A DNA stretch of 64,000 bases from Paramacrobiotus metropolitanus (lineage: Eukaryota; Tardigrada; Eutardigrada; Parachela; Macrobiotidae), in assembly GCF_019649055.1 (NCBI RefSeq), contig NW_026570283.1, positions 372,001 to 436,000 of the forward strand, in the 5' to 3' direction. Shown piece after piece: positions 4,252-38,023 of this stretch. How positions within the stretch are numbered: the first letter of the stretch is position 1; every line of letters starts with the position of its first letter. The translations under genes and the position numbers were made by a program. The notes under the pieces were generated by a model that was not told the origin of the DNA, did not search any database, and worked only from the letters and a program-made list of their open reading frames with translations.

Positions 4252-5554
4252 CTATCCAGTCTGGAGAGATACGGCTGTTGGTCTGACGTCCCATCTACCT
4301 CGAGTGCTAGAGTCCTTTCCGCCGACTCCTCGATTGTCGGCTCCCACCGAATCCACGACAATGCGATTGTACAAGAATAACAAGCAGCTGCTGATCGCAG
4401 TGCGCAGTGACCGAATGAAATCGTTCAAAAGCTGTTTGCTGCCTTGCTGGTAATCGTCGCTTAACAAGAGGAAGAACATCTGCAATAGATTCTTGCAGTG
4501 CTATCATGATTTGTACACTGCTGCAAGAAAAATAAAATTTGAAAAATTAGGTATGAGTGCCAAGGAATTTTATTTACGCTGTCGTTATGTACTTCAGTAC
4601 TTGTAATATCTGCCTGCACACGCAGTTTAATGAATACATATTGGTATTGTGGCAGACAAACAAATCGACCATAAAATTTTGTACCGGATTGGCGGCATAT
4701 TCCAGAGCGTGAATGGTGCGCAACCACAGCGACAGGAGCGCGCGATTGCCGGCACTGCGTGGTACCAACTGTATCAAGGCAATCGGCAGCTGACTGCACA
4801 CCGTATTCCATATGTAGGACGCGAACAGCAATTTGGCAATGACCACTCGCCTGCGCGAGACATCACTCCGTTGTCCCGCAGCACCCACTCGACTGCTCAT
4901 CTTAATCCGGATTGTTAAAAATATCGTAATGTAGATCACACCCGAGAGTACCACAGGAATGTACTGCCCGAACGCGGTCATCACAATGTATGTGAAGTTG
5001 TCAGTAGGGCCGAGGATTCCACATGAGTTCACCGTAACACCGAACTTCATGCCAATGTTGAACAGGGTCGGAATATCGCAAACGAGTACGATAAACCAAG
5101 AAAATGCAATACATCCGACTAAGGAGGGTTTCGCAGCAATGACGGAATACTTGTGTGGCAATAGCAGCGCGAACAACCGGTTGACACCCAGAAAAAAAGC
5201 CGTCCAGTAGCCAACCTGCATCAAGGTCAACTGAACAAACTGAGCCCACACGCAGTTCACCGTTAGCCCCTCGATGTTCACATACAAATTGATTACCGGG
5301 GAAATCATTATGGGGAAAATAATAGCGCAGAGTATCACATCCAAAATCTGCTTGTGAGCGATTAGCCAACCGGAACCCGTTTGGAGCTTTCGCTGTGTTA
5401 AGATGACCACCAAGAGAAAGCAGTTAAGGATGATGCCGAATCCACAGATCAGTGCATAAACAGCTAACCAGATGGTGGCATTCGACGTTACACGAAAAAC
5501 AGAATTAGTTGGCAGTGAAACATTGGTTGCCGCAGAATCGTTGAATGTTCCCAT
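4252..5554 (-). CDS. Orphan rhodopsin-like GPCR, copy 1 (two exons)
   Basis: Seven-transmembrane receptor, predicted in the plasma membrane with an extracellular N-terminus carrying NxS/T glycosylation sites. Exon 1 is 4685-5554 (290 codons) and exon 2 is 4252-4479 (75 codons plus stop), joined in phase 0 across a donor at AATCCG|GTACAA and an acceptor at TATTGCAG|ATG, giving about 365 residues. The splice falls inside the TM7 motif, restoring NPMFFLLLSDDY where typical receptors have NPxxY. TM3 ends in GVNRLFALLLPHKY, so the usual DRY is NRL. The TM1 Asn is present (GIILNCFLL). Three further copies and relics lie at 29-42 kb on the same strand. Ligand unknown. The class A call is solid, but no named subfamily is supported. 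Confidence 0.85.
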
Positions 5555-7656
5555 GATGGCATAAAAGAGTGCTCACCACAGCCGACAACGTCTGATCATG
5601 AAGATGTCTGATGTGTTGCGGTTGCTGATTCATGCGCTGATGGAATAATCCCGGCTTTTATATTCGCACTTATACCTACAGGTGAGTTGCACATCATCGC
5701 AAGTGTTCCGATTAACAGAATCAATAGAAGTGCTAACAAGGTTTTTATTCAAATTAGCTGCTAATTCCCAGTGCCACGAAGAAAGGGTGAGGCAGTGCCC
5801 GCGACTGCTTAATCTTTTCTTGTGACCGCACGATCAATCACGACTCACGAGCTCTTTTATTCCAGCATTCCATCTTGTCGATTAAATTTTTTTTCCAGAT
5901 ATTATGTTCACACTGCGGTCAGCGCATTCTGGGAATCAACGCCCCACGCATTCTGGGAATCAAATCAACGCATATTGTCTGGATGCGAAATGACAATCGC
6001 GATTAAATTTCTCTTTTAAATACAACACTGGCGCAAAATCCTCCTACATGTCTTCACTTTGAGAGTACACTTTAGAAATTGCTTTAACATGTTTTTATGT
6101 TTTATTGTTAGTTGAATGGCATAAGCTCAAGATCTGCTGAATAATTTGCTCCTTTGTTTGGATTATCGCTGATGGTTTGGTGTGCTTGTGCAGTTTCATG
6201 GCAAGATCAGCTTCGTTTGAGCATATTATAGTACATACAGGAAACACCTGCGGCTACCGCCTCCGGGGTTTCTTGGATCGATTTTTGAAATTTTTATACG
6301 TTATAGTGACAAAGTTATATAAAGTTATATGAAATCTCTGGTATACTCTATACAATACTCAATATACAAGTTGCAAACGGCAGGCTTTTGATGTTTGTTT
6401 TTTTGATGTTTTATTTATGCTGCATATATGTACTGTATATGCATATTATACTGTATGACACACGGAAACGTCGAAATCAAACACCCTCATTTTATTTATA
6501 GAAGTAGTCATCGAAGAAGTCCATTGTTTCAACACAATACCGTACGCAAGGGTCTTTTTGTATTACATACAAAAATGTATTAAATAAGATCGTTTTGTAT
6601 GTTTACAAAAAGTACGGCCCCTTGAGTACGGCACTGTTCAACCGTACCGTTTTGCTTTTTTGATATCTGTTAAGCCGTTGCACTGAATCGCGATTCAAGC
6701 AGTGGCCGACATTGTACTGTAATGATTCCACGTTAAAAGGTGTCTGTATTTTAAAACCACGTTATAAGCCACAGTAGCCTGTTTTTAAAATTTTTTTCGA
6801 CTAACGGTCACTTGTTGCTGTTATGTGCACGTCTGTTGTCAACCAATTGGTAAAACTTTATGACCGCTGATTACTTGTACCTAGCTATAGCTGGATCGAA
6901 CCTAGGAGTCCGGCAGCTGGAAAAGCCTCCGTACCACCCGCATTATTAAAGAAACCCATAAAACTATGAACTTCTATAAAATGATGACTATCGGTCTATC
7001 GGTAAAATTGAAAAGCAACGTTGTTCAAGAAAACAAAAACCCTGAATACAACCAACCATATAAGCAACCATTTTTTACCATCATTGGGGAGATTTGGGCT
7101 TTCGGGACGCTGCAGAACCACCCAGCAGGTGCCGCATGTGGCCTGCACATACTTCCTGGGCCTCATCTTAGCGGGTCCACCCTACCACTCTGTAGAGTCT
7201 TTTTAGGGACTAGCTTTTAATACTTTGAGATACAATCGAGAGAAACGGAGGTGTGACAAGTGGAAAAGCCGCAAATCCCATTTCACCAGTCAGCCCACAA
7301 AACGGAAATGCGGAAGTGAGCAAGTAATCAAATCTGATTGGGTTTTTGTACATAAAGTTTTCAGATTCAGACGGATGACGGCATAACTCAGAATCCATAA
7401 AAGTGTCAGTCCGATTAACAATACACAAAAATCGCCCTCGGGATCATAATGCTAAACCTTTAAGACGGTAAGATACATGTACAAAGGATTGGTGTAATGG
7501 GTAAACCGATTTTCAAATGGGAAAATTTTTCCTTTTTTATTACTTACAACGCACTACAAAAAGGTGTTCAGACATAATCGTGCCAGCCACTGAGGATTCC
7601 ATGACCTAGCCATGCAGATAAAGCTGTTTTCGTCAACAGCACTTTTTTAAGCATCT
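5555..7656. other. Intergenic region between GPCR copy 1 and ACVS
   Basis: No recognised gene. A 17-base direct repeat, cgcattctgggaatcaa, occurs at 5923-5939 and 5947-5963 in the DNA upstream of the GPCR. The right end holds the 3' flank of ACVS; a minus-strand AATAAA (plus TTTATT, about 7536) could serve as its poly(A) signal. Confidence 0.5.
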
Positions 7657-10600
7657 TTAGGCGGCAATTGTATCGCAGCTATAAAAAATAGACCGAATGC
7701 GCTGACCTATCCGCCTCACAGTGTCCGGATTGCGTACCCATGAATGGTGCGTGTCTTCCATGAGAATAAGCTGCACCGATGCTGCATCCATTAACGTGTC
7801 CAGATGGTTGTATTGTGTTTGCAAATAATGTGCGTGTAACAGCCGCTCATCTTCCGCAGAAAACATGTCACTTAGTCGAATAGCGCGGAAGAGAAGAATA
7901 TTCTGGACGTTTCTCATCATGTCCTGAAAGTCTGTCCTGTCCCGAGTATACCGATAGTGAATACGATCGAGGATGTACTTATCGGGACAACCAATAGTGC
8001 GCCCTGCAGCCGGCACATCGAAGTATGAATCAATAAACATCAGACTGGAAATTTTGTCTCCATTCTGAGATAACTGGCGGGCGACTTCGAGCGCCAACGT
8101 GCCACCAAAACTCCATCCCAGAAGATTGTAGGGTCCACATGGCTGCAGTTGTTTTGCGTAGTTAATATAGAATCTGGAAAGCTCTTCAAAGGTCATATCC
8201 GGTTTGTCCCGATAAATGTAATAGTTGTTAAAAAGAATCAGATGGAAAGCTTTTAGCTCTGAAGCCAAATTGTTCAGATAACTCTCGGCGCCTCCCTCAC
8301 CAGGAGGAAAAACGAAAATGACGGGGGCGTTCTCGTTTCCGGGAAGGTCGATGTAAGGCTCAAATTCGGCCAATGTGCTCGCTTCCAGGTCGATAATTTG
8401 CTGAAGGGTTTCTTTAAAAGATAAAGCCAGGCATTCGGTTCTTTCGTTTGCCAGTTGGCTCTTTATGCTAAAGCGTATTTCGTCATCGACACAAAGTCCC
8501 GTGATCTCCACGATGTCCTTGTTCGCAAGGTGACTGTCAGCTGACCTATCCTTTTCGTAATCAGATCGAATGTCCGTCAATGTCCAATCTGTATCCTTCT
8601 GGAAACCGAATCGGCCTAGGTAGTTAAAACAGATCTTGGGCAGAGTACTTTCGTAACCAATGAAGCTGCCGTATCCCAAGCCTTTATTTGGAATGACCTT
8701 ATGTAAATACTCGACGACGTGCAGCAGTGTTTCTTTTAAACTGCCTCGTACATGCAAAGCCACTGGATACATCGTTGTGAACCAGCCGACAGTCCGGCTG
8801 ACATCCATACCGTTCCAGGGCTCCCTTCCATGGCCTTCCAAGGTGACATAGTTAGTGTTTTGTTTGGTCGCACTTTGCAGGGCGTACGCTAGCGCTGTTA
8901 GCAGGACATCGCTGATCTCGATCATTTTCAGGTTTCCTTCTCGTCGCAGTAGGCGGTCGGTTTCTGTTTTCGACAAGACTATAGTGTTTTGATAAGCTTT
9001 ATCCCGGGTGACTAATGGTGTTAAGATACGCTTGTTGTACAAATCAGCCTCACTGCTCAGCTTTCTCCATAGGGCTTGTTCCGCTTCTGCGTTTTTAGCA
9101 TAGCCTTCGATGGCTTTGCTCCATTGCCGGTAACTTGTGAGTTTTTGGCCCAGCTGCCCACCTTCGTAGAGGGTTTTGAGGTCGTCAGAGATAATTCGCC
9201 AGCTGACAGTGTCGACGATCAAATGGTGCATCGCAAACCACACTCGCGCTGAACCATCGCAGTAACCGTGCAAATAACCTGCAGCGTAATTTATATGAAG
9301 TCACGTGACCTTTCACTAGGTGGAGAAAAAAATCTGGAAAATTCTAATTTTGATACCTACAGATAGCTTTGTTGCTTAGGGGGTGTGTCGTAATTTATCG
9401 GATATCTCGAAACACAATATATTGCGTTACTAATGCTACGTCGACTATGACTAACGACATACGGGCCAGTATAAATAAACAATAATTAGGATTCTCACCA
9501 ATGCTGAATATGGGACCGCCTGAAATGTCGAATTCATTCTGAAAATTTAGAATGCTTTCCGGATTTTGATAATGTTCCACGGAAAACACTTTAATCGGGA
9601 CTTTTCCGGTGTTAACTTCGTAATTCTGTGCGATTGTATCTCCGATCTTTCGGAATCTTAGACGAAAACCATCGTGATGTTTGATCAGCTTTTCTACAGC
9701 TTCCTGCAGCACTGGAAAATTAAGCGGTGGTGTTTTAATGGCAAAAGACTGATTCCAGTGGTTTATGTTATTTAATTTCTTGTCGAAAAACCACTTCTGG
9801 ATCGGTAGCAGCGGAACCGTTCCGCTTAAAATCCCCTGTTCAGTTGCAGTATTCAGGATATCCACCGCATATTGCATTCGATTGGGCGAAACGGCGTTCT
9901 CGGTAATCTCGCGTATTGTTCGGAACCTAAAAATATCCTTGAGGGTAACGCTTGTCTGTGTCTGTTGACGCATTCGTCCAATAAGCTGCAGTGACGCAAT
10001 GCTGTCGCCGCCGAGGCGGAAATAGTCATCATCAATACCGACACTGGGAACGTCCAACAAATCCGCCCAGATTTGGCAGAATTGTCGTTCTAGATGGTTT
10101 CGAGGTGGGGCGTACACTTTCTGAACCGGTACAGCGTTTACATCGGGGAGCGCACTCATGTCCAGTTTGCCATTTATTGTAACCGGAATTTTGTCTTTAA
10201 TTTGTATAATAATGGCTGGTACCATGTAACTTGGGAGTTTTTTCCCTAAGTGCGAAAGAATTTTGTTTTCCTCGAGTAAACAATTTTCCTGTGTTACAAC
10301 GTATCCCACAAGATACGGATTTCCGTGATGACCTTTGGGCAGTACGACACACTGTTTAACCGTAGGATATATCGCCAGGACTGCTTCAATTTCACCCAAT
10401 TCCACTCGTAAACCGCGAATTTTAATTTGCGTATCATCGCGCCCCAGATACTCTAGCGTGCCATCCGCAGCACGGCGAACCAAATCACCGCTTTTATACA
10501 TTACTGCATGCTCACCAAGCTGCTTTTCGACTTCTGTCTGGAAAAGGTTTGGGAGGTATCGCTCGCTGGTGAGCTGCTGTCGATTCAGATAGCCCCGTGT

Positions 10601-13600
10601 AACACAGTCGCCGGACAAGTAAAGTTGACCAACAGCACCTTGTGGCAAAAGCTGTAAGCTGTTATTCAGAACAAAACACTTCGTGTTGGACAATAAGCTG
10701 CCCAAGGAATTCTGATATGCATCGTTGGCTTGATATGTGCAGACCATATTATACACCGTGGTCTCAGTGATGCCGTACGCATTGTTCAAAATGCCTTTAT
10801 ATTCGCTTCGGATCTTCTCAAAGTGGATGCGCGTAAATGCCTCTCCGGCAACGGTGACCATCTGTAAGCTGGGGATTCTCGATAAGTCGATTTGTTGCAA
10901 GTATGTTGGTGTGCCACTTAGATAGGTCAGTCGATTCTCATTCAGGTACGTGTAGAATTCATCGTCAATGGTTAAGTTGTTGGCCACCACGATCAGCTTT
11001 CTGCCGTTTAGTATCGACAAAGCCATCTGTTCTATGGAGAAATCAAAAACATAGTTGGAAAGAAGGAGTACGCCGTGGTGCGGTGAATCGACAATATCCC
11101 TCGCGAAATAGCGGTCTATTAAACTGTTTCGCAGGCTGACCACAGCGCTGTGAGGAACCATTACGCCCTTGGGCTGTCCTGTTGTGCCAGAGGTGTAGAT
11201 AACGTAGGCTAGATTGTTTGCATCGGCAAATGATTTACAGTTGTGCAATGGTTGTTTATTCAGTACTGAAACAAACCCTGGGCTATCTATTCCGATGGCT
11301 GTCACCGTAGAACCGACAAGGTCATGTATTCGGTTAATATAGTGATGATTAGCGATGACAATATTGGTACTTGTATCCTCCAGGATGAATCGAATGCGCT
11401 CGTCAGGATAGCTGGGGTCAATAGGGACGTATGCGGCACCGGATTTCCAGACTGCGAGGATTGTAATAATGGTTGTCTCGGATTTATCGAGAAAGAGACT
11501 CACCAAAGTATCGGAACGGATGGAGAACATGGACCGTAAATAATGCGCTAGTTGGTTAGATCTGTTATTGAGCGTCTGGTACGTTAATTCAGTATTTCGG
11601 CACACCACCGCAGTGGAAGCTGGTAACCTTTCCGCCGTTCGTTCGAATAGCAAGTGCAGGAGTGGCGTAAGCTCATGTTGACGATTGCACACAGAAATTA
11701 TGTCGTCATCTAATACACAGTCTTCTTCCTTGACCAAATGCAAGCTGGCGAGTATTCGGTCATCGGCGGCATTTAGTTTCGCAATCTGCCTCAAAATGCA
11801 GAGATAGCTTTCCGCCATGCTGGTAATGGTGGTTCTGCTAAACAGACTTGTCGCAAAGTTTATTTGACCTTTCAACATGGCATCGCTTTCGCTAATCGTC
11901 GTAGTTAGGTCATACTTCGCCACAACATTGACTTGGGTTTGCGGTGTATAAGGGTGTGTTTCAAAAGCACCTTCGTGAGACACGGCTTCCGGTTTGTCGG
12001 CAGTTTCAAAAGGATTCAACGAGAATACAACCTGTTAAAAGAAAAGAAAGCAAATAGCAGTTAACGCTATAATAGTAGCTGCACCACGTCCGCCACCATT
12101 TTTCTAACCGTACAGCGCTCATATACCTATCTCGAATGACCCACCTGGAATATCGGGTGGCGACTGGGGTCCTTATCCAAATTCAATCCTCTTACTAAGT
12201 TTCCGAAAGGTATTTGCTGATGGGTCTGACATTCGATCGCTTGAGCGCTGACAACCTGAATGTATTCCATGATGCTCATTTTCAGATTGACCTGTATTCT
12301 CAAAGGGAGCATATTAACAAAGAAACCGATCAGATTTTCCAGTTCGAGCCGGTCGCGATTTGCAACGGGTGTGCCAATCACGATATCGTCCTGCTTGGCG
12401 TAATTGCTTAAAAGAAACACGTAGACACTGAATAGAATGGCAAATAAGCTGACACGAAGTTGCTTTGCCAGATTTTTCAGCAGTTCTGTAGTTTGCTGGT
12501 CAATCTCGAAGCCGACATTTTCTCCAGCATAGTCGATGTGAGAAGGCCGCGAAAAGTCGGTTGGAAGGCGGAGACTCTCGAATCCATCAAGATGCTTCAT
12601 CCAAAATGCTCTTAGATTATCTAGTTTCGGCTGCGAAAGGAATTGCCGCTGCCAGACAGCATAGTCTTTGTACTGGATAGTGAGATCTGGAAGATCTGGC
12701 ACCTGTGACACAGAAATTTGATTTTTCTGATAAAAAGTATAGTAAGCATGAAGATCTTGCTGAAATATCTTCCAAGACCATCCATCGAAGCAAGCATGAT
12801 GAACGAGAATGTTAAGAACCAAAAACTGCTTATCATCTGCAACCTCAAGAACGGTGACCTTTATTGGCAACTTCTCATTCAGCTTGAACACATGCATCGA
12901 TGTTGTTTGGAGTTCGTTGTCCAGTGTCTCGAGCTTGTCGACAAAACGTTCATCAACCATAAAGATTTCGTCGATGATGTTATCGGCAACAATGTGCTGT
13001 TCGTAGCTGCCATCAAGTTTCGATCGCTGAAAAATCGTTCGCAGCGCTTGCTGTCTGCCAATAAGCGAAATTAAGGCTCTTTTAAGGTTGCTCTTGTTCA
13101 CCGACGAAGGAATTCGAATGCTTAAAGAGACGTTGTAGGCACTTGTGCCATTTTCATAATCCTGGATGAACAAAAGTTGTTCTTGTGCCAAAGATACCGG
13201 AACGTTTTGCATGTGGGAGGAAACAATGGGTTGTGCCGCGCTAGCAGCTGCTAAGATGCAGTTTGACAGCGCTTCGATGGTCCGATGTCGGAAAATGGAC
13301 GCAATATCGATGCGCGGCTCCGAGAAGGCTTTTGCGATTTCAAAAAACAGCCGCTGCACACTGAGACTGTCACCGCCCAGGCCAAAGAAATCATCGTGTA
13401 TACCGATTGCATCAGCGGCAAGCCCGAGTATCTCCGACCAAATGTCACGTAATTTTGTTTGCACGGGAGTGGTTGGCACAGCGATCGCTTGGTGTGAAGA
13501 ATAGTCAATATCTGGTAGGCTCTTTATGTCTAGTTTGCCGCTAACCGTTATCGGAATTTCCTCAATACGCATTAACCGATGGGGTACCATGTATTCGGGA

Positions 13601-16600
13601 AGGCTTATCTGCAGAAACTTCTTCATTTCGTGTTCAGCAATGTAAGCGTTGGACATGTAATATCCGATCAAGTATTTTCTAGTTTCGTCATTCGCAGCAG
13701 ATGTATATTCTTTTGTCGTTACCACTGCCCGTTTGACGCCGGGATAAGAGATCATAGCCGTCTCGATCTCGCTAATTTCAATGCGCAGTCCTCGCATTTT
13801 TACCTAGAAATGTAAGAATACTTTGATTACTACGAGTAGAGTAGGGTAGGGGAGTAGAGTATCTCAGTTTTAAACAGTGAGCAAATGGATTACCTGCATA
13901 TCATTGCGGCCCAAGTACTCCAGTTCCCCATTTGGTAACCATCGCACCAAATCACCTGTTTTGTATATCCGTCCGTTTGTACCCTGTAGTTTTTCTTTCT
14001 CCGTTTGAAAAGGATTTGACCGAAACCGATCCGCGGTCAGTTCCGGACGGTTCAAGTACCCCCGTGCCACACCGACCCCACCAATGTATAATTCACCAAC
14101 TCCACCGACAGGCACACACTGCATATCGTAATTGAGAACATAGCACTTAGTGTTGGCCACCGGAAATCCGATACTTTTGTTGGTTCGCTTTTCGTGAACC
14201 GGGTATAACCGTTTGTGGCTCGTGATGGAAATCTCGGTGGGCCCATACCCATTGATAATCAAGCCTTCGAAACCTTTCCGTATCTTGTTAAATACCGGCT
14301 CGCTAAAATCCTCCCCAACCGCATCGATGCGGGTCAGCGAATGTTCAAATCGATCGTACTCGTACATCTGCAGGACAGATGGCGTACCGGACAAATAAGT
14401 GACCTTATTGCGCTGGATGTATTCGTACAGCCGGGCTTTGTCGGTGCGCATCTCATCGTTGAGGACAACAAGTGTTTGTCCATTCAACAGCGCATCGGTC
14501 ATTTGTTCCACAAAGTGATCAAAGACATAGTTGGAAAATGATAGGAACACTTCCTCTTGTTGCTGAAGCTTGAACACTTTACTCAGCGATAATTGCAAAT
14601 TAACCACACCCATGTGCTCCACCATGACACCCTTCGGATTCCCTGTTGTTCCTGATGTGTAGATGACGTAGGCCAGATCCGTACTCGATGACGTCGGTCC
14701 GACGTTATGCCACAGGCATGCAGCGCCCTTTAATACCGATTCAATTGGCAGAATCAAAATGTCCTTGCCGGCAACTAGCTGAAGTCGTGCAACGTGACGC
14801 TGATTCGTAATGAGGATTTTGGCTGAGGTGTCTTGCAGGATGAACTGAATTCGCTGGTCAGGGTAGTTGGGATCAGTAGGTACATAGGCCGCACCCGATT
14901 TCCATACGCCCAGGACGCTAAGGATCATTAATTCGCTCTTATCCAAGACAAGAGCGATTAGCATGTCCGGATGGATGTTAATCAGGCTGCGCAAGTGATG
15001 CGCCACCTGGTTGGCACGTTCGTTGGTTTTCTTGTAGGTCAAGCGACGGTCCTCGTAGACGATGGCGGTTTTGTCGGGATTTCGTGCCGCCATGTCTTCG
15101 AAGACATTGTGCAGAGTCTTCTCTCGGGGAAACTGACTTTCGGTATTATTCCACGCGTCAAAAAGAAGTTGCTGTGATGACGGTACGTAATCCAGTGTAC
15201 TACTGTTTTGTTCGGGATTTTCATTAATTTGGTTTAGCAGTTTAGCGAAGACGTCCAGTAGCTGGAGGACAGCGGTCTTTGAAAACAGGTCCCCAGCAAA
15301 CAGAAGAGTTAACTTGATCGACTGGCCTATTTCCTTAGCAAGAACGGCTAACGGATGGTCCAGCTTTTCCACTGTAAGCTGCTCTTGAAATCCCATCTTG
15401 TCTCGGTGTGGATCACTTCCGCTAGCATAGTTCTCCAATACAAAAAGACTATCAAAAAGACCATGCTTCAACGCCCCAGTGTTAACGTGTAGCAGCTCCA
15501 CGTTGCTTCGATCGTTCATTGCTGATATCTGCAAGAGCGAAAAAAATGTGGAGCCCTTTCCGTCATATCATTTTCTATAACGATAAGTATGTTCCATAAC
15601 ATGAGAATGCTTATAGTTAATTAGTTATTGACATAATTTTTAATTCCCTCTTCTTCGTCCATACAACTGTATACTACATAGCACTGTACTAAAGTGTACC
15701 ACCAGACTTAACCAGTTACAGTATACTATAGAAGTATACGTACTGTAAACTCTCTAGCTTATACTCTACTAAACGAAGCTGATAGCCTGATACGAACTGC
15801 TCGACCTCCTGCCGAGAGTTTAGCACATTGCTAAAATGGTCTTTCCAAGAACAGATAAAAACAGTAATGGATATTTATCTCTACGCCGATTTATTCAAAC
15901 ATCCAGTAATTAACTATCCGATTTTTTCAGTGATTTACCTGCATTTGTATGGATCTGATGCATTCGATAACACTTTGATGGCTGTCGTTTTCGTGACTGA
16001 CCACTAGCGGTAACGTATTAATAAACAGACCCACTGTTGATTCAATTCCGTCGATCGGAATATTACGTCCAGATACCGTTGTTCCCACCACTGTCTGTCT
16101 GCTACCACCGCAAACGGACAATACTTTGTGCCAGGTAAACTGCAGAACGGAATGGAGAGTAACGCCGTTCTGGGAGCAAAACATTTTCAATCGCGCGCAA
16201 TCGTCTCCACTAATTATTAGACTCTGCTCCAGCTGTTCTTCGATATGGTCGTAACTTGCCATGACAACTTTGTATTTATGCTCTTCCTTCAGAATACCAT
16301 TCATATCACATCGCTCGGAGATTCGTGCCGTTTGCTGCTGCCAGTAGCCTTCGTGCTCCTTGCGGTGTGCATGTAGATGTCGTTGGGCAACCGCGTATGT
16401 GCAGTCCGGCTCAAAGGTCACCTGATCCTGAATTAAAACTGGATCTTTAATGACGTCCTCAAGGACAGCCGTACATCTTAATCTAAACCAACTTGTAATA
16501 GTTTCCCGCAAATATTCGTAAACATAAACAACTTCTATGGATAATACAAGTAAGTATACTTCTATATCCGAACGAGCACTCATCATTGCACCATGCGACT

Positions 16601-19229
16601 GTAGTGTGTACGTATCTGACGGCTACGTACAGAAGGCGAAGCAGGCTCTAGCTCTCGAGAGAGGCCAGGAATAAGGAGATTAATTATTAAAAGAAGGAAG
16701 TGCGGTTACACTGTTTGACTGGATCATGCGGGTATAAAACTCATGGGCACAACGAAAAATAACAGCAATACTCCAACCATCCACGATAATATGATGGCAA
16801 CTAAACACTAGCGTAAACAGTTCATCATTCCGCTTTATGAGGTAAATGCGAAACAGATTGCCTTTCTCCAGATAGTATTTCTCGGCTCGATCACTGTGAA
16901 GTAGATCTTTAATCTGCCTCTCTTGCGCATCGAAACCGCCCTCGTTTGATAGATCCACGAAGTGGTAGTCAAGAGCTTGACTGTCATCCACGATCTGCAC
17001 AACCCTCTGGTCAACAACCTCGAACCTCAAACGCAAAGCCGGGTACTTCCGCTGAGTGTGTATCCAGGCATTATGCATATAGTCAGGATGGATTGATGAC
17101 CGGTATTGGTAGACATTCTGCATGGTGTAAGCATCTCCGCTTTCACGTTGTTTAAGGTATCGGTAGTATAGTCCTTGTTGAAGACCGTTGGCCGGCATAA
17201 CCCCTGTCTTCTCGTCGGTTTCCTCGTTGTATACCGGTAATAAGTTATCATCATTAACGATAGAATTTCGTTGTATGTGAGAGGCCAAATTTTGTGCTGT
17301 TCGCATTGTAAAAATATCCTCGACTGTTAGAGCTGTACTTAGTCGCTTGCGAACCTGCCCGATAACATGGATAGCTTGGACGCTGTCGCCGCCAACGCAC
17401 AGAAAGTCATCAGTCGCGCTAAGATGATCGAAAGGGATATTCAAAACCGTTGCAAAAATGTTCAGGATTTCTTTTTCCCAGTGGTTGCATGGGGGGACTT
17501 TTTCGATGTTGCAGGCAATGCTGACGTCCGGCAGTGATCTAACATCCAGTTTGCCATTAGTTGTTACCGGTATCTGTGCAATTCGTACCATTCTGTGTGG
17601 TATCATGTACCGGGGAAGTCTGGTTGCCAGATACCCCAAGATAGCTTTTTCTTCAGCATCGCCAACGAAATATCCCACCAAAGACTTTACTGCACCGATA
17701 TCTTTGGCCACAACAACACTTTGTGTAACACCCGGGCACGCGGAGAGATGTGCTTCGATCTCTCCGGGTTCAATGCGGATGCCGTGTATTTTGACCTGAT
17801 TATCGTTTCGACCAAGGAATTCCAGCTCACCGTTGCTTAACCATCTAGCCAGGTCTCCTGTCTTGTACATTCTGGCATTATGACCGTATGTCTTCTCTTG
17901 TTCTGTCTGAAAAGGATTTTTGAGAAATCTCTGGGCCGTCAGATCTGGCAGCTGCAGGTATCCTGGAGAAACTCCCGCGCCTCCGATGTATAGTTCACCG
18001 CTTTCCCCAACCTTGACTGACTGAAGTTGTTCGTCTAAAACGTAGCATTTCACATTGTTCAACGGTTTTCCGATACTGCGGTCTAATCTTTCCGATCCTG
18101 CTGGGAAAAACTTTCCTGTGGTGACAAAAGCTGATTCCGTAGGACCGTATTCGTCGATAATGGTGCCGGTGAAGGTTTTCCGGATTTTGTTATAGCAGTG
18201 TTGCGTTAGTTCCTCTCCGGCGCATAATATTTTGGAAAGTGCGGGACATGCCGAGTAGCTGTACTGCTGCAGCAGGGATGCCGTGCCGTTCAAGTAGGTG
18301 ATACCTGACTGCTGCAGAAAACTACTGAATTTTATGGGATCATGTTTATGCTGATGCGGCACAATGACGAGCGTTTGGGAATTAACAAGTGCCATTAACA
18401 TTTGTCGCAGAAACGGCTCGAAGACGTATTCCGAGAACAGAGCAATCCGTTCGGAGCCTTCCTGCATCTTGTATCTCGCTGACAGGTCGACAATGCTGTT
18501 GATGACATTTTTGTGCTCTTTCAAGACACCTTTCGGTTGACCCGTTGTACCGGATGTGTATGTCACATAAGCCAACGTGGAGACGTTGTGTTGTGGCAGT
18601 GGTTTCGACAAGAGCGGTTTCAGATTATCAACAGCAATAATTTTGTCCGAGGGATACAGCATGGACAGCCGCGATGTATACGATTCGTTAGCAAGCACAG
18701 CTACTGCCCTGGTGTCGTTCAGAATGAAACGTACACGATCATCTGGATAGTCTGGAGCGATGGGAACGTATGCGGCGCCGGCTTTCCAGAGAGCCAAAAT
18801 GCTGATGACCAGGAGCTCGCTTTTGTACATAAAAAGAGCAACCAGCTGGTCGGGATTTGCTGTCATGATTGTTTGGACGTACGAAGCCAGGTGGTTGACC
18901 CGCTCACTGAGCACCCGATAGGTAAGTTGTGTACCTTTGTTGATGACTGCCAGTTTATGAGGAGCTCTTTCGACTGATTCTTCAAAAAGTTGTATTAGAT
19001 TTGCAGCCGATGGGAAGGGCGCATCCGTTTTGTTCCATTCTTCCACGACGTCCAGCTCTTGTGGAGAACGGTTATGATCCGGGCTTTCGGTCGAGTCAGA
19101 GGTGCCTCCGAACTGGGCTTCAATCGTCATTTTCCTATAACCATTCCAGACTATTAATGCTCGTAATGTCTGAAACGCATTAGACAAAAATTTACGGATG
19201 ACATCTCTCATTATAAAATTCTTTATCAT
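7657..19229 (-). CDS. ACVS (pcbAB-like): ACV synthetase, trimodular non-ribosomal peptide synthetase (six exons)
   Basis: Joins L-alpha-aminoadipate, L-cysteine and L-valine into the ACV tripeptide (LLD form), the penicillin precursor. Exons: 16710-19229, 15939-16427, 13894-15528, 12145-13803, 9499-12031, 7657-9278; all junctions are GT-AG and the spliced frame is unbroken (3485 residues). Order: A1 ~85-565, T1 (GGDSVQ), C1 (HHIIVDGWS), A2 ~1135-1640, T2 (GGDSLS), C2 (HHACFDGWS), A3 ~2230-2740, T3 (GGDSIA), epimerase (HHLIVDTVSW, EGHGRE, NYLGRF), thioesterase (GWSFGG). Pocket codes read by alignment: A1 EPRNLAEFV, A2 DHESDVGIT, A3 DFESTAAVY. The last two are the canonical ACVS codes. The start is uncertain: Met1 at 19229 or Met34 (19130). 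The roughly 270-residue N-terminal region of fungal ACVS is not seen. It diverges from IPNS across 1.9 kb. Introns argue against bacterial contamination. Confidence 0.95.
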
Positions 19230-19475
19230 CAGTACTGTTACACACTCTGGTGCTTACACACACGTACAGATAAAATGTAATATCTATGTTATGTATTCAA
19301 GACATGTAAACTGTCATTACAAAATACAAACAACGATAAATACGTACATACATGCCGAGCAAGTGGTAAATGTTCCGCGCAGATCTGTAGCTGTTTTTTT
19401 TTAATCTCAATTTCAGTGTAATTAATTTTGCATTCAGCTTGATGCTACCGGGACTTGGTGCCACAATAACTTTTT

Positions 19476-19510
19476 GATGCAATTGCACCACTTTTTGGTG
19501 CAATTGCACC
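19476..19510. repeat. Paired TGCAATTGCACC palindromes
   Basis: Two copies of TGCAATTGCACC sit 21 bases apart. The second, extended to GGTGCAATTGCACC, is a perfect inverted repeat. Paired dyads near a divergent promoter are typical of factor-binding sites, but I cannot assign a factor. Confidence 0.5.
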
Positions 19511-20224
19511 CTGCTTTTCTGAAGGAAACCAATCACATAACGGCATGACTATTTTGTCCCGCACTTTGTCTTAAAGTAGCCAGGCTAATTCATATAATTT
19601 TTAATTTTAGCACGAGTAACTTTTTGGTAGTAAGGCACTTACACGTTAATTACTGCAAATCCAAAAGACCTAACTTAACAGATCCAAAAAACCTAGTAAA
19701 GCAGAAAATACCTTACTGCAGGCTGTTATGCCGACAAGGGTGTGGCAAATTCACAGTCAAAAGGTGTTTTGCTACAAAAACTGCGGCAAAGTAGCCGCTT
19801 TGATACATAATTTCTTGGTTTACCGCTCAGCTTCACAAAAAGGACTTCCTGCAGATATGATCCTTGGCGTTCGTGATACTTCTTTCCTATTTTCTTCGTT
19901 AAATCATTGTTTAACATGCAGTGTATATCAGTAATGTTCAATAAAGCAGTTACATACAGACGTGAATGGGTTTTCCTTTAAGCGAGCACACACCCCAATA
20001 AATGATGAAGTTTGAAACCGATCCACAGTCAAATGATTAATAATGGTTCCCAAAAACTTATGAAATAATAGTGCACTGTATTAATTAATATTTGCAGGTT
20101 GAGAGCGCGCCAACGTTGAATTTAAACAAATGTTAAAGGTCACGGTTGAGCAAAATCAGTAATCAGTGCTTTGTTAGATCCGATCAAATCGAGTCTTCTG
20201 TGCATTTAGAAACATAAGCTCAGT

Positions 20225-20467
20225 ATGAAGACATTCATTGTCGATGCATTTTGGGTAATATCGGTTCGGATGGCTTTGAACTTTTATGAAGTATGTATTT
20301 ACCCAATACTAGATACAGTGGCAATACAAAGCCTTGTACTGATTATATATACCTCTGTGCTTATCGGGACTTATCTATTCCTGACAACATTGTTGACACG
20401 GATGATGTATGGAAAACAACCTTCTGACGTCTTTAGAAGGCGAACTGCCATAACAGCTTCGTTTTAA
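20225..20467 (+). CDS. Possible small two-pass membrane protein
   Basis: An 80-codon open frame starts with MKTFIVDAFW and ends RRRTAITASF. It has two hydrophobic stretches, the second (residues ~34-58) strong: SLVLIIYTSVLIGTYLFLTT. A short basic C-terminal tail follows. It lies between the divergent ACVS and IPNS starts, on the IPNS strand. No family is recognised and no intron is needed. It could be a chance ORF, an untranslated leader, or part of an unrecognised gene. Codon composition does not settle the matter by eye. Confidence 0.3.
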   Translation: MKTFIVDAFWVISVRMALNFYEVCIYPILDTVAIQSLVLIIYTSVLIGTYLFLTTLLTRMMYGKQPSDVFRRRTAITASF

Positions 20468-21118
20468 GATTTTTTTATAAACAAGCACCGTCTGCTCCAA
20501 AACAGTATCGTCCCAAAAAGTCTAACCTCGTTTTTGTATGTACGTGCATACAACTTCACTGTACTGCATCTACGGAGAAAAATTGGACGTACATCTCACC
20601 GCCTATGCTTAAAATTAATAATACCCACTGTGTGAGGTAGCCGTATAGAATCAACTTTGACTGTATTTCTGAATGGACTTTCGTCAGGCCTACCTTACAT
20701 CGGCCAACGTTTTATCAACGCATTAATTACTAGTAACTGTTTTGGGTTTATCCGCCATTGTCTGCAATAAGGCGGACACTACTGATTATTATTTGAGGAT
20801 GCAATTATATGAATGAGTGTTGTTATCAAATTGTTTGCATGGATGAGAAAGCTGTTTCGTGCAAACAAGGACAATTACTGCTTATCACATCGAACCTTCT
20901 AATTAATGAGCAACAACAACAGAAACCGGAAGGCGCGTTTCGATCGCATCATGGTATCGCATCATATGTCAATGTTCAAATGCAAGGCACCGCTTGTAAA
21001 TGACAACTGCAACGCTTTATAGCGGACAATGTTTAGCAGTTGTCAACTGTACCTAATTGTATCGCTTTGGTTAACTACCAGTACAAAAATTTTCGAAGTG
21101 CAAATCTATAACGCAAAA

Positions 21119-22325
21119 ATGCTGACCACCGAGGTCAGCATTCCAACTATTGACATGTCACCATTGTACGGCGACAACACAGCGGCGAAGCTAGAAGTAG
21201 CACGGCACATAGACGCGGCATGCCGCGGCACAGGGTTCTTCTTTGCCAAAGGTCACGGTGTGGATTGTCTGCGAGAATTCTTCAACATTGTCGACCATTT
21301 CCACAAGAAGATAACAGATAAGGAGCGATGGGAGATGGCCATTGCGGCGTACGATCCGCAGCATAAAGATCACATCCTCACCGGTTACTACCTGCCGGTC
21401 AAGGACAAGAAAACCGTACAGTCCTTTGTAAGAGTTACAATATCTAGCTGTTCTTGTTTGTATGGATAATTTGTGTTTCGTTTTTAGTACATCCAAAATC
21501 CAACATTCAGCGCCGATCATCCCCTTATTCAAGCCAACACTCCGCTTCACGAGATCAATGTATGGCCGGACGCTGAAAAGTATCCCGGTTTCAGAGAGTT
21601 CATCGAAACCTATTACTGGAAAGCGTTCAATGTGTCAAAGGCTCTTCTTCGTGGCATCGCCTTAGCTCTGGGCAAAGATCAGGATTTCTTCGAACCATTC
21701 TTTCAACCAGAGAGCACCATGTCGTCGATGAGACTTATCCGCTATCCGTATATCGATCCATACCCACCCGGCGCCATCAAAACGGCCGCCGATGGAACGA
21801 AACTCAGTTTCGAAACGCATGCAGATGTTTCTCTGCTGACCGTCCTGTATCAACCATGTAGGCCTTTGATCTTCAAAATCTGTGAAAATGCAAGGACATG
21901 ACAAACTCCTTTTTTTGTAGTTGTGGCCAATTTGCAGGTTGACACTGCGGATGGATACAAAAGCATCCCATCATCGGACGACTGCTACCTGGTGAATGGT
22001 GGATTATTCTGCAACGCATTACTAACAACTATTACAAGGTCAGTTGGAGCAAGGAAAGTTTTGGTTCTAGATCCTTTTCTTGGTTATCTTATGGTTGGTA
22101 CCTTTGTTACAGGCTCCCCTCCATCGCGTGAAGTTTGTTAATGCGGAGAGACTCTCTCTGCCGTTTTTTGTCCATCTAGCCAGTGACAGCGTTATTGAAA
22201 GCTTTTCTCCACATGGAAGCGCCAGTGATGTTATGTGCAACAATCCACAATATCCAGTACTGTCTTATGGGGAGTTTTTTCAGGAAGAACGCCAAGTGCT
22301 GATTAAAAAAAACGGACAAACGTAA
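21119..22325 (+). CDS. IPNS (pcbC-like): Isopenicillin N synthase, non-haem iron oxidase (four exons, frame problem in exon 3)
   Basis: Closes the ACV tripeptide into the bicyclic penicillin nucleus using Fe(II) and O2. Exons: 21119-21427, 21488-21857, 21921-22038 (or 22042), 22113-22325. Residues align without gaps to Aspergillus IPNS numbering up to about 258. Iron ligands are His214 and Asp216 ([13 protein letters not shown]) and His270 (APLHRVKF). Ser183, Tyr189 and the RxS pair (AERLSLPFF) are present, and the family C-terminus NGQT is kept. Differences: Arg87, which binds the aminoadipoyl carboxylate, is Leu; Val185 is Arg. Exon 3 changes frame: VNGGLFCN is read in one frame and ITNNYYK, ending at the best donor (AAG|GTCAGT), in another, one base short. 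A weak donor four bases later (TCA|GTTGGA) restores the downstream frame, for about 337 residues. An in-frame upstream Met at 21029 would add a hydrophobic leader. AATAAA is at 22422. Confidence 0.93.
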
Positions 22326-23500: not shown

Positions 23501-26148
23501 ATGGATGTGTTGAATCAGAGCGATATGCTATCTCATATTGTTTATGAAAGCGAGACTTCGGCTGGTGAGAACCTCCTGGAAAACATTCTTCGCGCACAGG
23601 TACATCTTGTACAGTACTTCTTACATTGTTTTAGAATACCGTATGCCTTCGTTGGTAGTGAACTTACTCATTGTCAGTAATATAGACCTTCTGGTCATTC
23701 CTTGGTTAGTCAGTTTATTCAGGAGCAGACACACCCTGGGCACTCGTACTGTGCGTGAGCGGCCACCTTGCACAAAATTAATGTGGAAATGGTGCGCAAC
23801 CGCTTTGAAAATTAACGTACAAGTTAAGGGATTTGGCCCGGTACAAAGTACCAAATTCGGGTGCATACACGGGAACTTTCGCTGTCGCGCAATTCTAAAC
23901 ACCCTTTTGCATTGCTTTATGACATTTTGTGGCCAAAGAATTTACATATGTGGCGTGAAATCCGTTGGCGCGCGCAACATCCGGTTCGGGAGTTATTAAT
24001 TAAGGAAATAAAATTCCAAAAGTTCAAACGCGCGGATGTGTACCAAAAGTCTCATTATGAACCGATGCTCTTCAAATTTTGCACGAAAACACACATTACT
24101 ATGAAGATCATTTTGGTATCGAACCAGCTTTCTACCATTTTTTTCAAATTTTAAAATGAATTTCAAAAATTTTAAAAATTAACAAAATAACAAAGTGCGT
24201 TTTTGTGCAAAATTCGAAGAGCATCGGCTCATAATGAGACTTTTGGTACACCTCCGCGCGTTTAAACTTTTGGAACTTTATTTCGCTAATAATTCCCGAA
24301 CCGAATGTTGCGCGCACAAACGGTTTTTTCGCCTATGTATACGAACCCTTCGGCTACATAATATCGTAAAGCAATGCAAAAAAGGGTTGGGGAGCGCGCG
24401 ATAGCGAAAGTTGCCGTGGATGTATACAAATTTGGTGCTATGTACCGGGCCAAATCCCTTAAACTGTGGGCATTACTGTTTTACATTTGAGCGAATTCTT
24501 GTAAAGCTTTGTAAATTTAATGATGATTTTCTTGTTGAAGAAATTACCATGATATTCATAACATTCTGGTGCTCTAAAACGAATTTCCGAGCACGTACTC
24601 TATGCATGCAATAACCGTTTTACACCAATACGTATGTAGTGCAAAAAATAGTGGTACAAACGGTATGCACAAATAACCCGGCTTTGGCCAAATGTAATTT
24701 GTTTACTTGGTACGGATTAGCAGATATCTGCTTTTATATCTGTGCAGCAAAAGACATCTTGATTTGCACTTTTTGAATATTTGTTGCAGTTGATACCCTG
24801 ATTTGTAGGGCGAAAACGAAGATTCTTTTTATATCGTGCGTTTGACCGAAATTTACGCAAAGCATGCCAAATGGTCAAACCTGATGTCCCGTGTAAGGCC
24901 ATATTATGGCGTTAAGTATAATCCCGATCCTATTGTGCTGCGGGTGATGGCGCAATTGGACGTGGGTTTCTACTGCGGCAGTCCAAGGGAAATCCAGTCT
25001 GCATTCAATATGGGCGTCGCACCGTCGCGGATCGTCTACAGTAATCCCTGCAAACATCGATCCTTCATCAAATGGGCACAAGAAAACGACATCGGTCTCT
25101 TGATATTTGATAACGAAGAAGAACTGCACAAGATCAAACAAGGTCATCCAAACGCTGCCTGTATTTTGCGAATCGTTGCTGGTGGCCAAAATCGTGCAAA
25201 CCTCTCAGCGAACGAAGTAAGAACAATGACATAGATAACTGTGGGTATAATTATTTCGTGCTGCTGACTTAGCTGCTACGTCTTAGCCCACCGTTTTTCT
25301 GTTACAAGAAATATGGAGCGAATGCAGTTTCGGCCCGTCTGTTGATCAGCATATCCAAGAACCTTGGCTTAAATTTAAAAGGAATCTGCGTACACCTTGA
25401 AGGAACGGAATCAAGCACACGTAATGTGTTCGGGAATGTTGTGCAAGAAGTGCGGCAGCTGTTTGATTACGCACAGGAAACGTTCCAGATCAGCATGGAT
25501 TTAATCACCATTGAGGGTAACTTCTTAGACCAGGATGATTCCCTTGCGTCCGTTGAGTCCCTCGTTGAAGCGTACTTTCCAGCTGATGCACAACCGCAAG
25601 TAAAAATTATTGCCGAGTGCGCTGGCTGCTACGTACGGTCAGCAATCACGCTCTGTTCAACAGTGATAGCCAAGCGAAAGGTCACCAACCATGGTCTTAA
25701 TATATCGATAATGTATTACATCAACGCGGGTCGCCTGGGCAGCTTGAAAATACATCGACCTCAAGCACAAATTGCTCGTTTTGCCAACAACAAGGAAGAC
25801 GCTTCTGACCACATTAAATCGTCTATTTGGGGTCCAACGTGTGCGGCTTTAGATGTGGTTACAACTGAATGCTATCTACCGGAAATGCAAATCGGGGAAC
25901 GGTTGGTTTTTCCCGGCATGGGCATCGATAGCCTGACCTGTGCATCGACATTTAATGGAATGCCATTAACACAGTCTGTTTACGTGGTCCCCAATGCCAC
26001 ATTTCACTGTCAACAAATGGCGAAATGCCCACCTACATCTCAGGATATCGAGCGATTAGTTGATCGAGCGTCGGTACGTCTGCTCCCACTCTTGGTTCAT
26101 GTGGCGCTTGTGTATTCCCTGCGCTGCCTTTTTATGTGTAAGGTATAA
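23501..26148 (+). CDS. Ornithine-decarboxylase-like protein 1, active site degraded (three exons)
   Basis: Fold-type III PLP decarboxylase family. Exons: 23501-23599 (MDVLNQSDML start), 24809-25216, 25309-26148, all phase 0, about 446 residues, with no internal stop. Relative to active ODC it keeps the PLP lysine (VKYNPDP), CKH and WGPTC. It has lost the Asp of GFDCAS (here GFYCGS), the glycine loop (GGGF becomes EGNF), EPGRY (becomes CAGCY), the Asp of NDGVYGSF (becomes NAGRLGSL) and the residue after the catalytic Cys. This looks like an antizyme-inhibitor-like or otherwise non-catalytic homologue, but early decay is also possible. The last exon may splice at TCG|GTACGT near 26073 to an exon I did not find. 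Intron 1 carries a large foldback repeat. Confidence 0.8.
23823..24465. repeat. Long imperfect foldback repeat in ODC-like 1 intron 1
   Basis: Two arms of roughly 260-280 bases are inverted copies. The left begins aagttaagggatttggcccg (23821) and the right ends with its complement around 24445-24465 (cgggccaaatcccttaaact). The spacer is about 100 AT-rich bases near 24090-24195. Arms match at perhaps four bases in five, so it is not recent. No transposase frame is present. Most likely a foldback or MITE-type DNA element that entered the intron. Confidence 0.75.
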
Positions 26149-26167
26149 AAGTTGGCACATAGCACTA

Positions 26168-26250
26168 AATTTTACGGTTACCTGATGTTAGACCAAAAAA
26201 GTTTACGGTTATTTTTACGATTTTTACGGTTTTAAGTTTACGGTTTTATT
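26168..26250. repeat. Short interspersed TTTACGGTT repeats
   Basis: The unit TTTACGGTT or near variants recurs about five times between the two ODC-like genes (26170, 26202, then around 26214-26245). Spacing is irregular, so it is not a clean tandem array. No function is evident. Confidence 0.5.
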
Positions 26251-26486
26251 ACTACAAGTATTTTTTCTTTTACCAAAGTTTGGAAGTACAATCTCACAGT
26301 ACGACGGAGACGATCCAACTAAGCCGCGTCGGCATTCTCAACATTTTTATGACAAAAAACGAAGCATTTTTTAGTCAAAACAGTAACAAAACTACATATA
26401 CCACTAATACATATCTAGATATGTAGTTGGTTTTAATTTTAAAGCTGAGATAATTCCATTTACAGGAAAATTATTTTATTCATCCT

Positions 26487-27866
26487 ATGGATCCTGGAAT
26501 GACGGAGAGGTCTTTAATTGTCCAGACTGAGATTGACATATCTGGTGCGACGAAAACTATCAGCTGTACTCAGGTGAAGCTTCTACTGCTTAATAGTGAC
26601 TTGCGAGCACCAGTTCGAAATTTATCCTTTTCTTAGAACTATACTGACGTCCCCTTCTTTGTTGTTAACCTCGACGACGTATCCCGAAAATATTTTCACT
26701 GGATTCAAACATTTCCGCGCATCATGCCGTTCTACGCTGTCAAATGCAACCCCGATTTGGTCCTATTACGCTTGTTAGCAGACCTTGGTACTGGCTTTGA
26801 CTGCGCTAGTCCCCATGAAATTCAGACAGTGCTGAATATGGGAGTGCATCCTGAGCGTATCATTTACGCTAATCCTTGCAAACAGCAATCATATATCGCG
26901 TACGCTAGGCAAAGAAGCGTTGGGCTGATGACCTTTGACAATGAAGCAGAACTGTACAAAATAAAAGAAAATTTCCGAAGGCTAAATGCGTTTTACGAAT
27001 TGTTACTGACGATACGGGAGCTCATTTTCAGCTTAGCGAGGTACGTTTGTTGTCAAGTTGCAATTCCCTTTAATCGATTGTTTACAAGCAAACCCGTGAC
27101 TCACCTGATAAAATAACAGAAATTTGGAGCCAGCCTGGAGGATTCTCAAGAGCTAATTCTCCTTGCGCGGCACCTGCAGTTAAACCTGTGTGGGATCAGT
27201 TTCCATGCCGGTTCGGGTCAGATGTCGGCAACAACGTTTGAAAAAGCTATATCTAACACTCGCACATTGTTTGACTATGCTAAAAATCTGGGCTTGAACC
27301 TCAATCTTTTGGATATTGGTGGGGGATTTTCGGGGTCGGCTGACTTCACTGCTTTCGATTCTCTGGCATTAAAGGTCAACGCAGTGCTTGCTTTGCACTT
27401 TCCTCCAAATCAGTTCCATAATTTACAAATTGTTAGCGAACCTGGGTGCTATTTTGCCAGTTCCGCGTACACACTTTGCACCACGGTTATTGGTAAACGA
27501 ACGAGGGAAAAATATGGAGAACCTTTGATAATGTATTACATAAATGATGGTGTTTTTGGGAGCTTCAAGTTTCTCAGCCGCCCACGCGTTGCACCGGAAC
27601 TGATCGAAGAGAAGACAGGGCCAAACTTGCGAAGTGAAATCTGGGGACCGGCAACCTCCGGACTCGATATGATTGTAGCGAAATGCGATCTGCCTGAACT
27701 GTTGATTGGCGATTTAATCGTTTTCCGCAACGCCGGTGATTATTCCGTTGGAAGCGCGGTTCCGTACAACGGGATGCCGGTGGCACGAGAACGAATGGTT
27801 TATCTGGCCAGCTTTTTATGGGCGGAACGCAACAAAATTTTTATTTCAGACAATTTTAGGCAATAA
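26487..27866 (+). CDS. Ornithine-decarboxylase-like protein 2 (three exons, one-base frame break)
   Basis: Paralogue of the preceding gene, same strand and same intron positions. Proposed exons: 26487-26573, 26637-27040, 27120-27866, about 412 residues. It keeps the PLP lysine (PFYAVKCNPD), Asp of GFDCAS, the His of SFHAGSG, LDIGGGF and the Asp of INDGVFGSF. The catalytic Cys/Asp pair of WGPTCDGLD is replaced (WGPATSGLD) and EPGRY reads EPGCY, so classical ornithine decarboxylation is doubtful. Exon 2 is one base short: the frame ending KIKE must shift at 26967-26971 (run of A) to read FPKAKCVLRIVTDDTGAHFQ up to the donor GAG|GTACGT. One extra A would restore it, so assembly error is as likely as decay. 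The first exon is assigned by position and splice site only. Confidence 0.78.
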
Positions 27867-37965: not shown

Positions 37966-38023
37966 TTGTACGTATAATTATGTTGTACGTATATGTATTA
38001 GAGACAAGCAACCTTCCATGTAC

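Follow-up and report, generated by a model that had tools for sequence, protein, structure and literature searches.

In the papers covered here, the animals with published genes of beta-lactam biosynthesis are springtails, a single nematode, and a single annelid. An earlier note on the DNA described here had named springtails as the reported animal case. This was incomplete, since genes from the nematode Plectus sambesii (PMC10531068) and an isopenicillin N synthase (IPNS) from the annelid Enchytraeus (PMC8460440) are also in print. The ACV (aminoadipoyl-cysteinyl-valine) synthetase, ACVS, of Plectus sambesii is on short scaffolds, where contamination is possible, and the same 2023 survey gives no nonribosomal peptide synthetase (NRPS) for its two tardigrade species (PMC10531068). 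The DNA in question, hereafter the window, is a stretch of 64,000 nt from the tardigrade Paramacrobiotus metropolitanus (Macrobiotidae; GCF_019649055.1, NW_026570283.1, 372,001 to 436,000, forward strand); coordinates below are window positions. It very probably carries a beta-lactam biosynthetic gene pair of the tardigrade, composed of an ACVS-type NRPS and a divergent IPNS-family oxidase, and this judgement covers identity, host and pathway class. No report of ACVS or IPNS genes from tardigrades was found in the titles, abstract starts and some full-text passages of the literature, including PMC11258130 and PMC10764717, a range that leaves subscription papers mostly outside. The proteins themselves are already public as automatic NCBI entries.

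The synthetase and the oxidase

The ACVS gene starts at 19229 and stops at 7657 on the minus strand, and its six exons join into exactly 3485 codons. All five introns (282, 410, 90, 113, and 220 nt) have GT-AG borders. The NCBI protein P0121 is identical to residues 34-3485 of the six-exon join; its start codon was chosen 33 codons downstream of the ATG taken in the earlier note. As P0121 is an independent entry, the frame is no chance product, and the single 3485-codon frame of six GT-AG exons described in that note was recovered.

Three AMP-binding, three PP-binding, and one Thioesterase domain were found by Pfam in this protein, together with three Condensation-type stretches, which are read as two condensation (C) domains and one epimerization (E) domain. 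The resulting order of adenylation (A), carrier (T), C, E, and thioesterase (TE) domains is A-T-C-A-T-C-A-T-E-TE. The active-site motifs, namely three GGDS, three HHxxxD[G/T] (HHIIVDG, HHACFDG, and HHLIVDT), and one GWSFG in the TE domain, are present, and the domain order is the one read previously. Identity to ten ACVS-type proteins is 41-48% in the best aligned piece.

The substrate pockets were compared at nine positions numbered after GrsA, with a numbering and a meaning of the codes that we assume. The comparison included the second copy described below and 88 other ACVS, taken from 119 listed rows (P0122-P0240) among the best 120 of 2144 scored proteins; 30 rows were left out, having a length outside 3300-3900 aa or not exactly three A anchors. 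The A2 code, DHESDVGIT, is the same as in 29/88 other ACVS, and the A3 code, DFESTAAVY, as in 28/88, so that the cysteine and valine pockets proposed in the earlier note stand.

The partner oxidase had been overlooked. It is an IPNS homologue at 21119-22325 on the plus strand, transcribed divergently from the ACVS gene and made of four exons with introns of 60, 63, and 74 nt, all GT-AG. It matches solved IPNS chains with an E value of 1.2e-108. When the frame break in exon 3 is read as X, the iron ligands H214, D216, and H270 are kept, as are Y189, R279-x-S281, and the C-terminal NGQT. The stretch between the two start codons is presumed to be a shared promoter region. P0121 and the NCBI model of the oxidase, P0001, are both Paramacrobiotus metropolitanus entries on the same contig of 874,946 bp.

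These two enzymes would act in succession. The A1 domain would load aminoadipate or a close analogue, A2 cysteine, and A3 valine, and the two C domains would link the residues; the E domain would convert valine to the D form, and the TE domain would free the tripeptide. The synthetase might be activated by a host phosphopantetheinyl transferase, as proposed for springtails (PMC10531068). The iron oxidase would then close the tripeptide to a penam active against microbes, in the gut or on the body surface.

A second ACVS copy of the same animal, P0122, is on a separate contig of 680,294 bp and shows 86% identity to the window ACVS (2887/3349 positions). In bins of 150 residues, the identity is 89-98% over residues 151 to 1800 and 60-88% from 1801 on. 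The E motif of P0122 reads HR instead of HH, and the A3 code of this copy has L instead of F. The former replacement means that the epimerase step of this copy may be altered or lost.

P0124, a 4245-residue relative of ACVS, is on an ENA contig of 24,106 bp. It has five Condensation stretches, compared with three in the tardigrade protein; one of them, located after module 1, is epimerase-like and has DR in place of HH.

Table 1. Exons of the ACVS gene and of the IPNS homologue, and the stretch between them (window positions)
Feature	Position	Strand	Content
ACVS exon 1	16710..19229	-	A1, T1, start of C1; NCBI model begins 33 codons in
ACVS exon 2	15939..16427	-	Middle of C1; 3' splice site picked by homology, alternative 6 nt downstream possible
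ACVS exon 3	13894..15528	-	Remainder of C1; greater part of A2, with Cys code DHESDVGIT
ACVS exon 4	12145..13803	-	End of A2, T2, most of C2
ACVS exon 5	9499..12031	-	Remainder of C2; A3, with Val code DFESTAAVY; T3; beginning of E
ACVS exon 6	7657..9278	-	E (HHLIVDTVSW), TE (GWSFG), stop
Intergenic stretch, ACVS start to IPNS start	19230..21118		1.9 kb, GC 37.7%, between divergent start codons
IPNS homologue exon 1	21119..21427	+	Leu at position 87
IPNS homologue exon 2	21488..21857	+	Arg185, Tyr189, HxD iron ligands
IPNS homologue exon 3	21921..22038	+	One-nucleotide frame break near 22009-22012
IPNS homologue exon 4	22113..22325	+	His270, Arg279-x-Ser281, C-terminal NGQT, stop; open in conserved frame

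Relationships of the two proteins

Trees were made with 43 rows for ACVS and with 73 and 44 rows for IPNS, the rows being chosen by hand from the listed matches. In the 44-row IPNS tree, the window protein joins its relatives P0002-P0004 at 100/98, and then that of the rotifer Rotaria at 100/99, which is the nearest named one (59% identity). A clade of 14 rows at 100/99 also takes in Plectus and Bradysia. Its four named rows are all from animals, namely a tardigrade, a rotifer, a nematode, and a fly; the label "animal" was applied to this set after the first tree, with 4/14 rows carrying animal names and two rows coming from EukProt. Fungi form a group of their own (98/87), and bacteria are found elsewhere, in more than one group. 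In the ACVS tree, both tardigrade copies join P0124 outside fungi and bacteria, with a long-branch warning for P0124 and the tardigrade rows.

ACVS and IPNS genes are otherwise mostly microbial. A horizontal origin is thus the natural reading, and we infer that the pair is foreign in its ultimate origin. The earlier note had proposed a horizontally acquired gene that gained introns. The introns, the host-like codon usage, and the two long open copies agree with this proposal; a donor and a direction do not follow from the trees, in which both proteins lie apart from the fungal and bacterial sequences included. With four animal phyla named in the IPNS clade, the question arises whether animals acquired the genes a single time long ago and then often lost them, or whether the genes passed from animal to animal.

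Two members of the clade should be described in their own right. P0006, from Rotaria sp. Silwood1, is a bdelloid IPNS homologue with Leu87/Arg185, as in the tardigrade; no report of a rotifer IPNS was found among the paper titles covered. P0007 (with P0009 and P0012) is an IPNS that is entered under the fungus gnat Bradysia odoriphaga and located on a contig of 3.5 Mb. In the 2023 survey, beta-lactam genes are given only for Collembola among the hexapods that it analysed (PMC10531068).

Recognition of the first residue and alternative explanations

The A1 code, EPRNLAEFV, agrees with the commonest ACVS code at 8/9 positions, including E235, P236, R239, and E322. Position 301 is A in both tardigrade copies, whereas it is V in 87/88 and I in 1/88 other ACVS. 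At columns at least 95% conserved among the 88 others, with domain borders placed by hand, the window ACVS deviates at 16/153 in A1, 8/179 in A2, and 5/106 in A3. The excess in A1 over A2 and A3 together gives a Fisher p of only 0.025, and the tardigrade ACVS is among the more divergent rows. The carrier domains deviate at 6/13 such columns in T1, compared with 1/11 in T2 and 1/15 in T3 (p = 0.0098). In a leave-one-out control, the A1 excess of the window ACVS was 0.059 and the highest among the 88 others was 0.024; six T1 changes occurred in 0/88. The A1 changes L336C, V337A (equal to position 301), N359D, and F363P are located at or beside pocket positions. P0124 has the same A (301) and P (325) states in A1.

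The acyl pocket of the oxidase is also changed. In IPNS, the carboxylate of the aminoadipoyl group of ACV is held by Arg87 through a salt bridge (PMC8378823, PMC5637899). Among the best 120 of 232 proteins found in the IPNS search, on which the column counts are based, the residue at position 87 is L, L, L, V, and L in the window protein, P0002, P0003, P0004, and the Rotaria protein P0006, respectively, and Arg in 115/115 other rows listed (106/106 outside the 14-row set and the 9/9 remaining rows of the set). At position 185, the set has R in 13/14 rows and K in 1/14; outside it, R occurs in 1/106 rows listed. Arg185 is thus present in all five tardigrade and rotifer rows, and the natural Leu87/Arg185 pair in 4/5, P0004 having Val87. 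Columns 74, 87, 104, 106, 181, 184, 218, and 314 (S. clavuligerus numbering), at least 90% conserved in the 115 others, are changed in all five. Tyr91, Ser183, and Tyr189 are unchanged in the tardigrade homologue.

The same two positions have been engineered in the IPNS of S. cattleya. The S185R variant accepts phenylacetyl-, phenoxyacetyl-, phenylglycyl-, and hydroxyphenylglycyl-Cys-Val (2026, PMC13338154), and S185R R87L is the best variant for 3/4 of these substrates (PMC13338154). Recognition of the first residue thus seems to be remodelled in both tardigrade enzymes, so that either the acyl part or the way in which it is bound may be unlike that of fungal and bacterial ACV; the first residue itself may be other than ordinary aminoadipate. 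We tentatively suggest that tardigrades, and apparently bdelloid rotifers too, possess a natural beta-lactam pathway with a switched first residue, in which module 1 and the acyl pocket of the oxidase have changed together, the oxidase having the Leu87/Arg185 pair that was selected by engineering to form penicillins directly from neutral acyl-Cys-D-Val. If so, the penam produced would bear a novel side chain and would arise without the side-chain exchange used by Penicillium. A full switch is opposed by the A1 code, which is near that of aminoadipate, and by the unchanged Tyr91 and Ser183. Because of these features, the altered substrate is kept as a possibility somewhat on the doubtful side, and an ordinary ACV pathway is given a chance not far short of even. 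In the latter, normal ACV would be cyclised to isopenicillin N, Arg185 would stand in for Arg87 as the residue that holds the aminoadipoyl carboxylate, and the changes in module 1 would be neutral drift. The agreement of the A1 code at eight of nine positions fits such a pathway, as do the unchanged Y91, S183, and Y189 and the R or K at position 185 in all 14 clade rows, nine of which still have Arg87. However, the S185R enzyme of S. cattleya combined with R87A, R87L, or R87S is inactive on ACV (PMC13338154), and the A1 excess is matched by 0/88 other ACVS.

Both of these readings, and that of a decaying pathway, are within the class of a beta-lactam gene pair. In the last, the IPNS gene would be a recent pseudogene, and the animal would make the tripeptide alone or nothing useful. 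The one-nucleotide break in exon 3 and the truncated NCBI model would agree with decay, and so would the replacements in the E motif and A3 code of the second ACVS copy and a nearby receptor gene that also looks frame-shifted by eye. Exon 4 nevertheless remains open for 70 codons in the conserved frame, with His270, Arg279, Ser281, NGQT, and the stop, the frames of the relatives P0002-P0004 are uninterrupted, and the main ACVS copy is open throughout. The assembly was made from Nanopore R9.4 reads polished with Illumina reads (170 Mb, 43.46% GC; PMC8277472), and a single-nucleotide misassembly truncating another gene has been documented in it (PMC11191345). An assembly error is therefore considered somewhat likelier than a very recent loss, and decay of the pathway seems unlikely. 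That the contig derives from some other organism, such as Lecane inermis, the rotifer used as food, is highly improbable, even though the culture was fed with Chlorella and this rotifer (PMC8277472), the closest IPNS with an organism name in the tree belongs to a rotifer, and a flanking receptor matched its own contig alone. The sequenced animals were starved and washed (PMC8277472), the GC content of the window (42.5%) is close to that of the assembly, and two ACVS copies are present on two long contigs. Codon usage of the ACVS gene also fits that of four flanking open reading frames (ORFs) (r = 0.90 over 59 codons; GC content at third positions 0.505 and 0.513, respectively), though this is silent on which animal it is. 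Contamination by the food rotifer is thus judged unlikely. Least probable of all is an NRPS and an oxidase unrelated to beta-lactams. Module 1 and the N-terminus are unlike those of classic ACVS, and IPNS homologues in luminous ctenophores are reported in another connection, as worded in a reference title; against this stand the cysteine and valine codes, the identity to the ten ACVS-type proteins, and the location of the two genes side by side.

Several observations weigh against the reading as a beta-lactam gene pair of this tardigrade. The region that lies ahead of A1 in other ACVS was not found: 9/10 compared proteins align only from residue 197-355 (window residues 36-65), and tblastn with 13 ACVS N-termini against 19110-21118 gave no convincing upstream exon, the best E value being 0.088. 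Small N-terminal exons were possibly overlooked, and for this reason the protein is still filed as ACVS-type although no match to the accessory N-terminal partial C-like region was found. The IPNS reading frame is interrupted by one nucleotide in this assembly, so that the NCBI model, P0001 (301 aa), ends before His270. The oxidase has Leu in place of Arg87, and because of this loss it is filed as an IPNS-family oxidase and not as a proven ACV-cyclising IPNS. Together with the changes in module 1, those in the aminoadipoyl pocket of the oxidase weaken the reading of the NRPS as a plain ACV synthetase. The name given in the earlier note thus holds for the domain order and the cysteine and valine codes, and less well for the unusually altered A1 module and for a partner without Arg87. 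No second 2-oxoglutarate-type oxygenase or linked deacetoxycephalosporin C synthase (DAOCS) was found with an IPNS profile in 2143 ORFs of at least 20 aa in the window, a search that did not extend systematically to further enzymes of the pathway; the four IPNS pieces were the only matches below E 1, the next having an E value of 1.7. Finally, one flanking receptor was searched for a tardigrade homologue; it had two matches only (E 1e-10), each of them from the contig that carries the window, and this search proves nothing either way about a tardigrade neighbourhood.

With its paired genes on a long contig, the locus would be a clean case that adds a phylum to the animals with beta-lactam genes. 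A concrete and cheap biochemical test is offered by the natural Leu87/Arg185 pair; if the result is positive, an enzyme for penicillins with side chains other than aminoadipoyl would be at hand.

Neighbouring genes and comparison with described systems

The ACVS gene is flanked by seven-transmembrane (7TM) receptors with Srx similarity, two genes resembling ornithine/arginine decarboxylases, and the start of a BET bromodomain gene, as found by Pfam in 31 stretches of the window, a subset of its ORFs; most smaller stretches had no match. Gelsolin and leucine-rich-repeat pieces at 49-58 kb are read as FLII, as in the earlier note. The Srx similarity had first suggested a nematode origin, which was rejected once the protein matches proved to be named from Paramacrobiotus. 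The animal gene neighbourhood claimed in the earlier note is supported by the BET bromodomain start, the 7TM receptors, and the tardigrade NCBI contig. The decarboxylase-like genes are in tandem at 24809-27863 on the plus strand (Orn_Arg_deC_N, Orn_DAP_Arg_deC). The second has GPATSGLD at what we take to be the site of the usual active-site Cys motif, and its product may be a non-enzymatic regulator. The receptors form a local family on the minus strand (4577-5572, 29568-30605, 37981-38727, and 41413-42246), with Srx-like scores (7TM_GPCR_Srx) in the three scanned; the copy at 41.4 kb looks frame-shifted when read by eye. A 539-codon open frame at 36381-37997 on the minus strand, which overlaps one of the receptor copies at its end, has a weak reverse-transcriptase match (E 0.013) and is probably a retroelement fragment.

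The engineered S. cattleya IPNS S185R R87L has the same residues at positions 87 and 185 as the tardigrade enzyme. It is man-made and converts acyl-Cys-D-Val into penicillin G, penicillin V, and amoxicillin (PMC13338154). The springtail Folsomia candida resembles the tardigrade in that ACVS is accompanied by IPNS in an animal genome, and two ACVS and two IPNS genes are on record for it (PMC5490193). Neither bacteria nor fungi could be singled out as the donor of the springtail IPNS either (PMC9460274). By its published description, one springtail cluster differs in also carrying cmcI and cmcJ (PMC5490193). Plectus sambesii, with ACVS, IPNS, and DAOCS, has its IPNS in the same 14-row clade; it differs in that Arg87 is kept and in the presence of DAOCS (PMC10531068), no second such oxygenase being found in the tardigrade window.

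Bacterial pcbAB-pcbC loci (Streptomyces and others) contain the same two enzyme families but differ in arrangement. Fifteen loci were obtained from the genome contigs scanned. A close IPNS (55-84% identity) is present at 12 of them, and 11 of these also have an ACVS in the stretch examined; the twelfth had none there. All 11 have the two genes on the same strand (11/12 loci with a close IPNS), ACVS being upstream in ten and downstream in one. In fungi (Penicillium, Aspergillus), pcbAB and pcbC are arranged divergently, as in the tardigrade (PMC8954384). The Penicillium genes are intronless according to the same review (PMC8954384), whereas the tardigrade ACVS gene has five introns, and the fungal proteins branch apart. 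The layout of the tardigrade pair is thus fungal-like, yet the trees place neither of its proteins within fungi.

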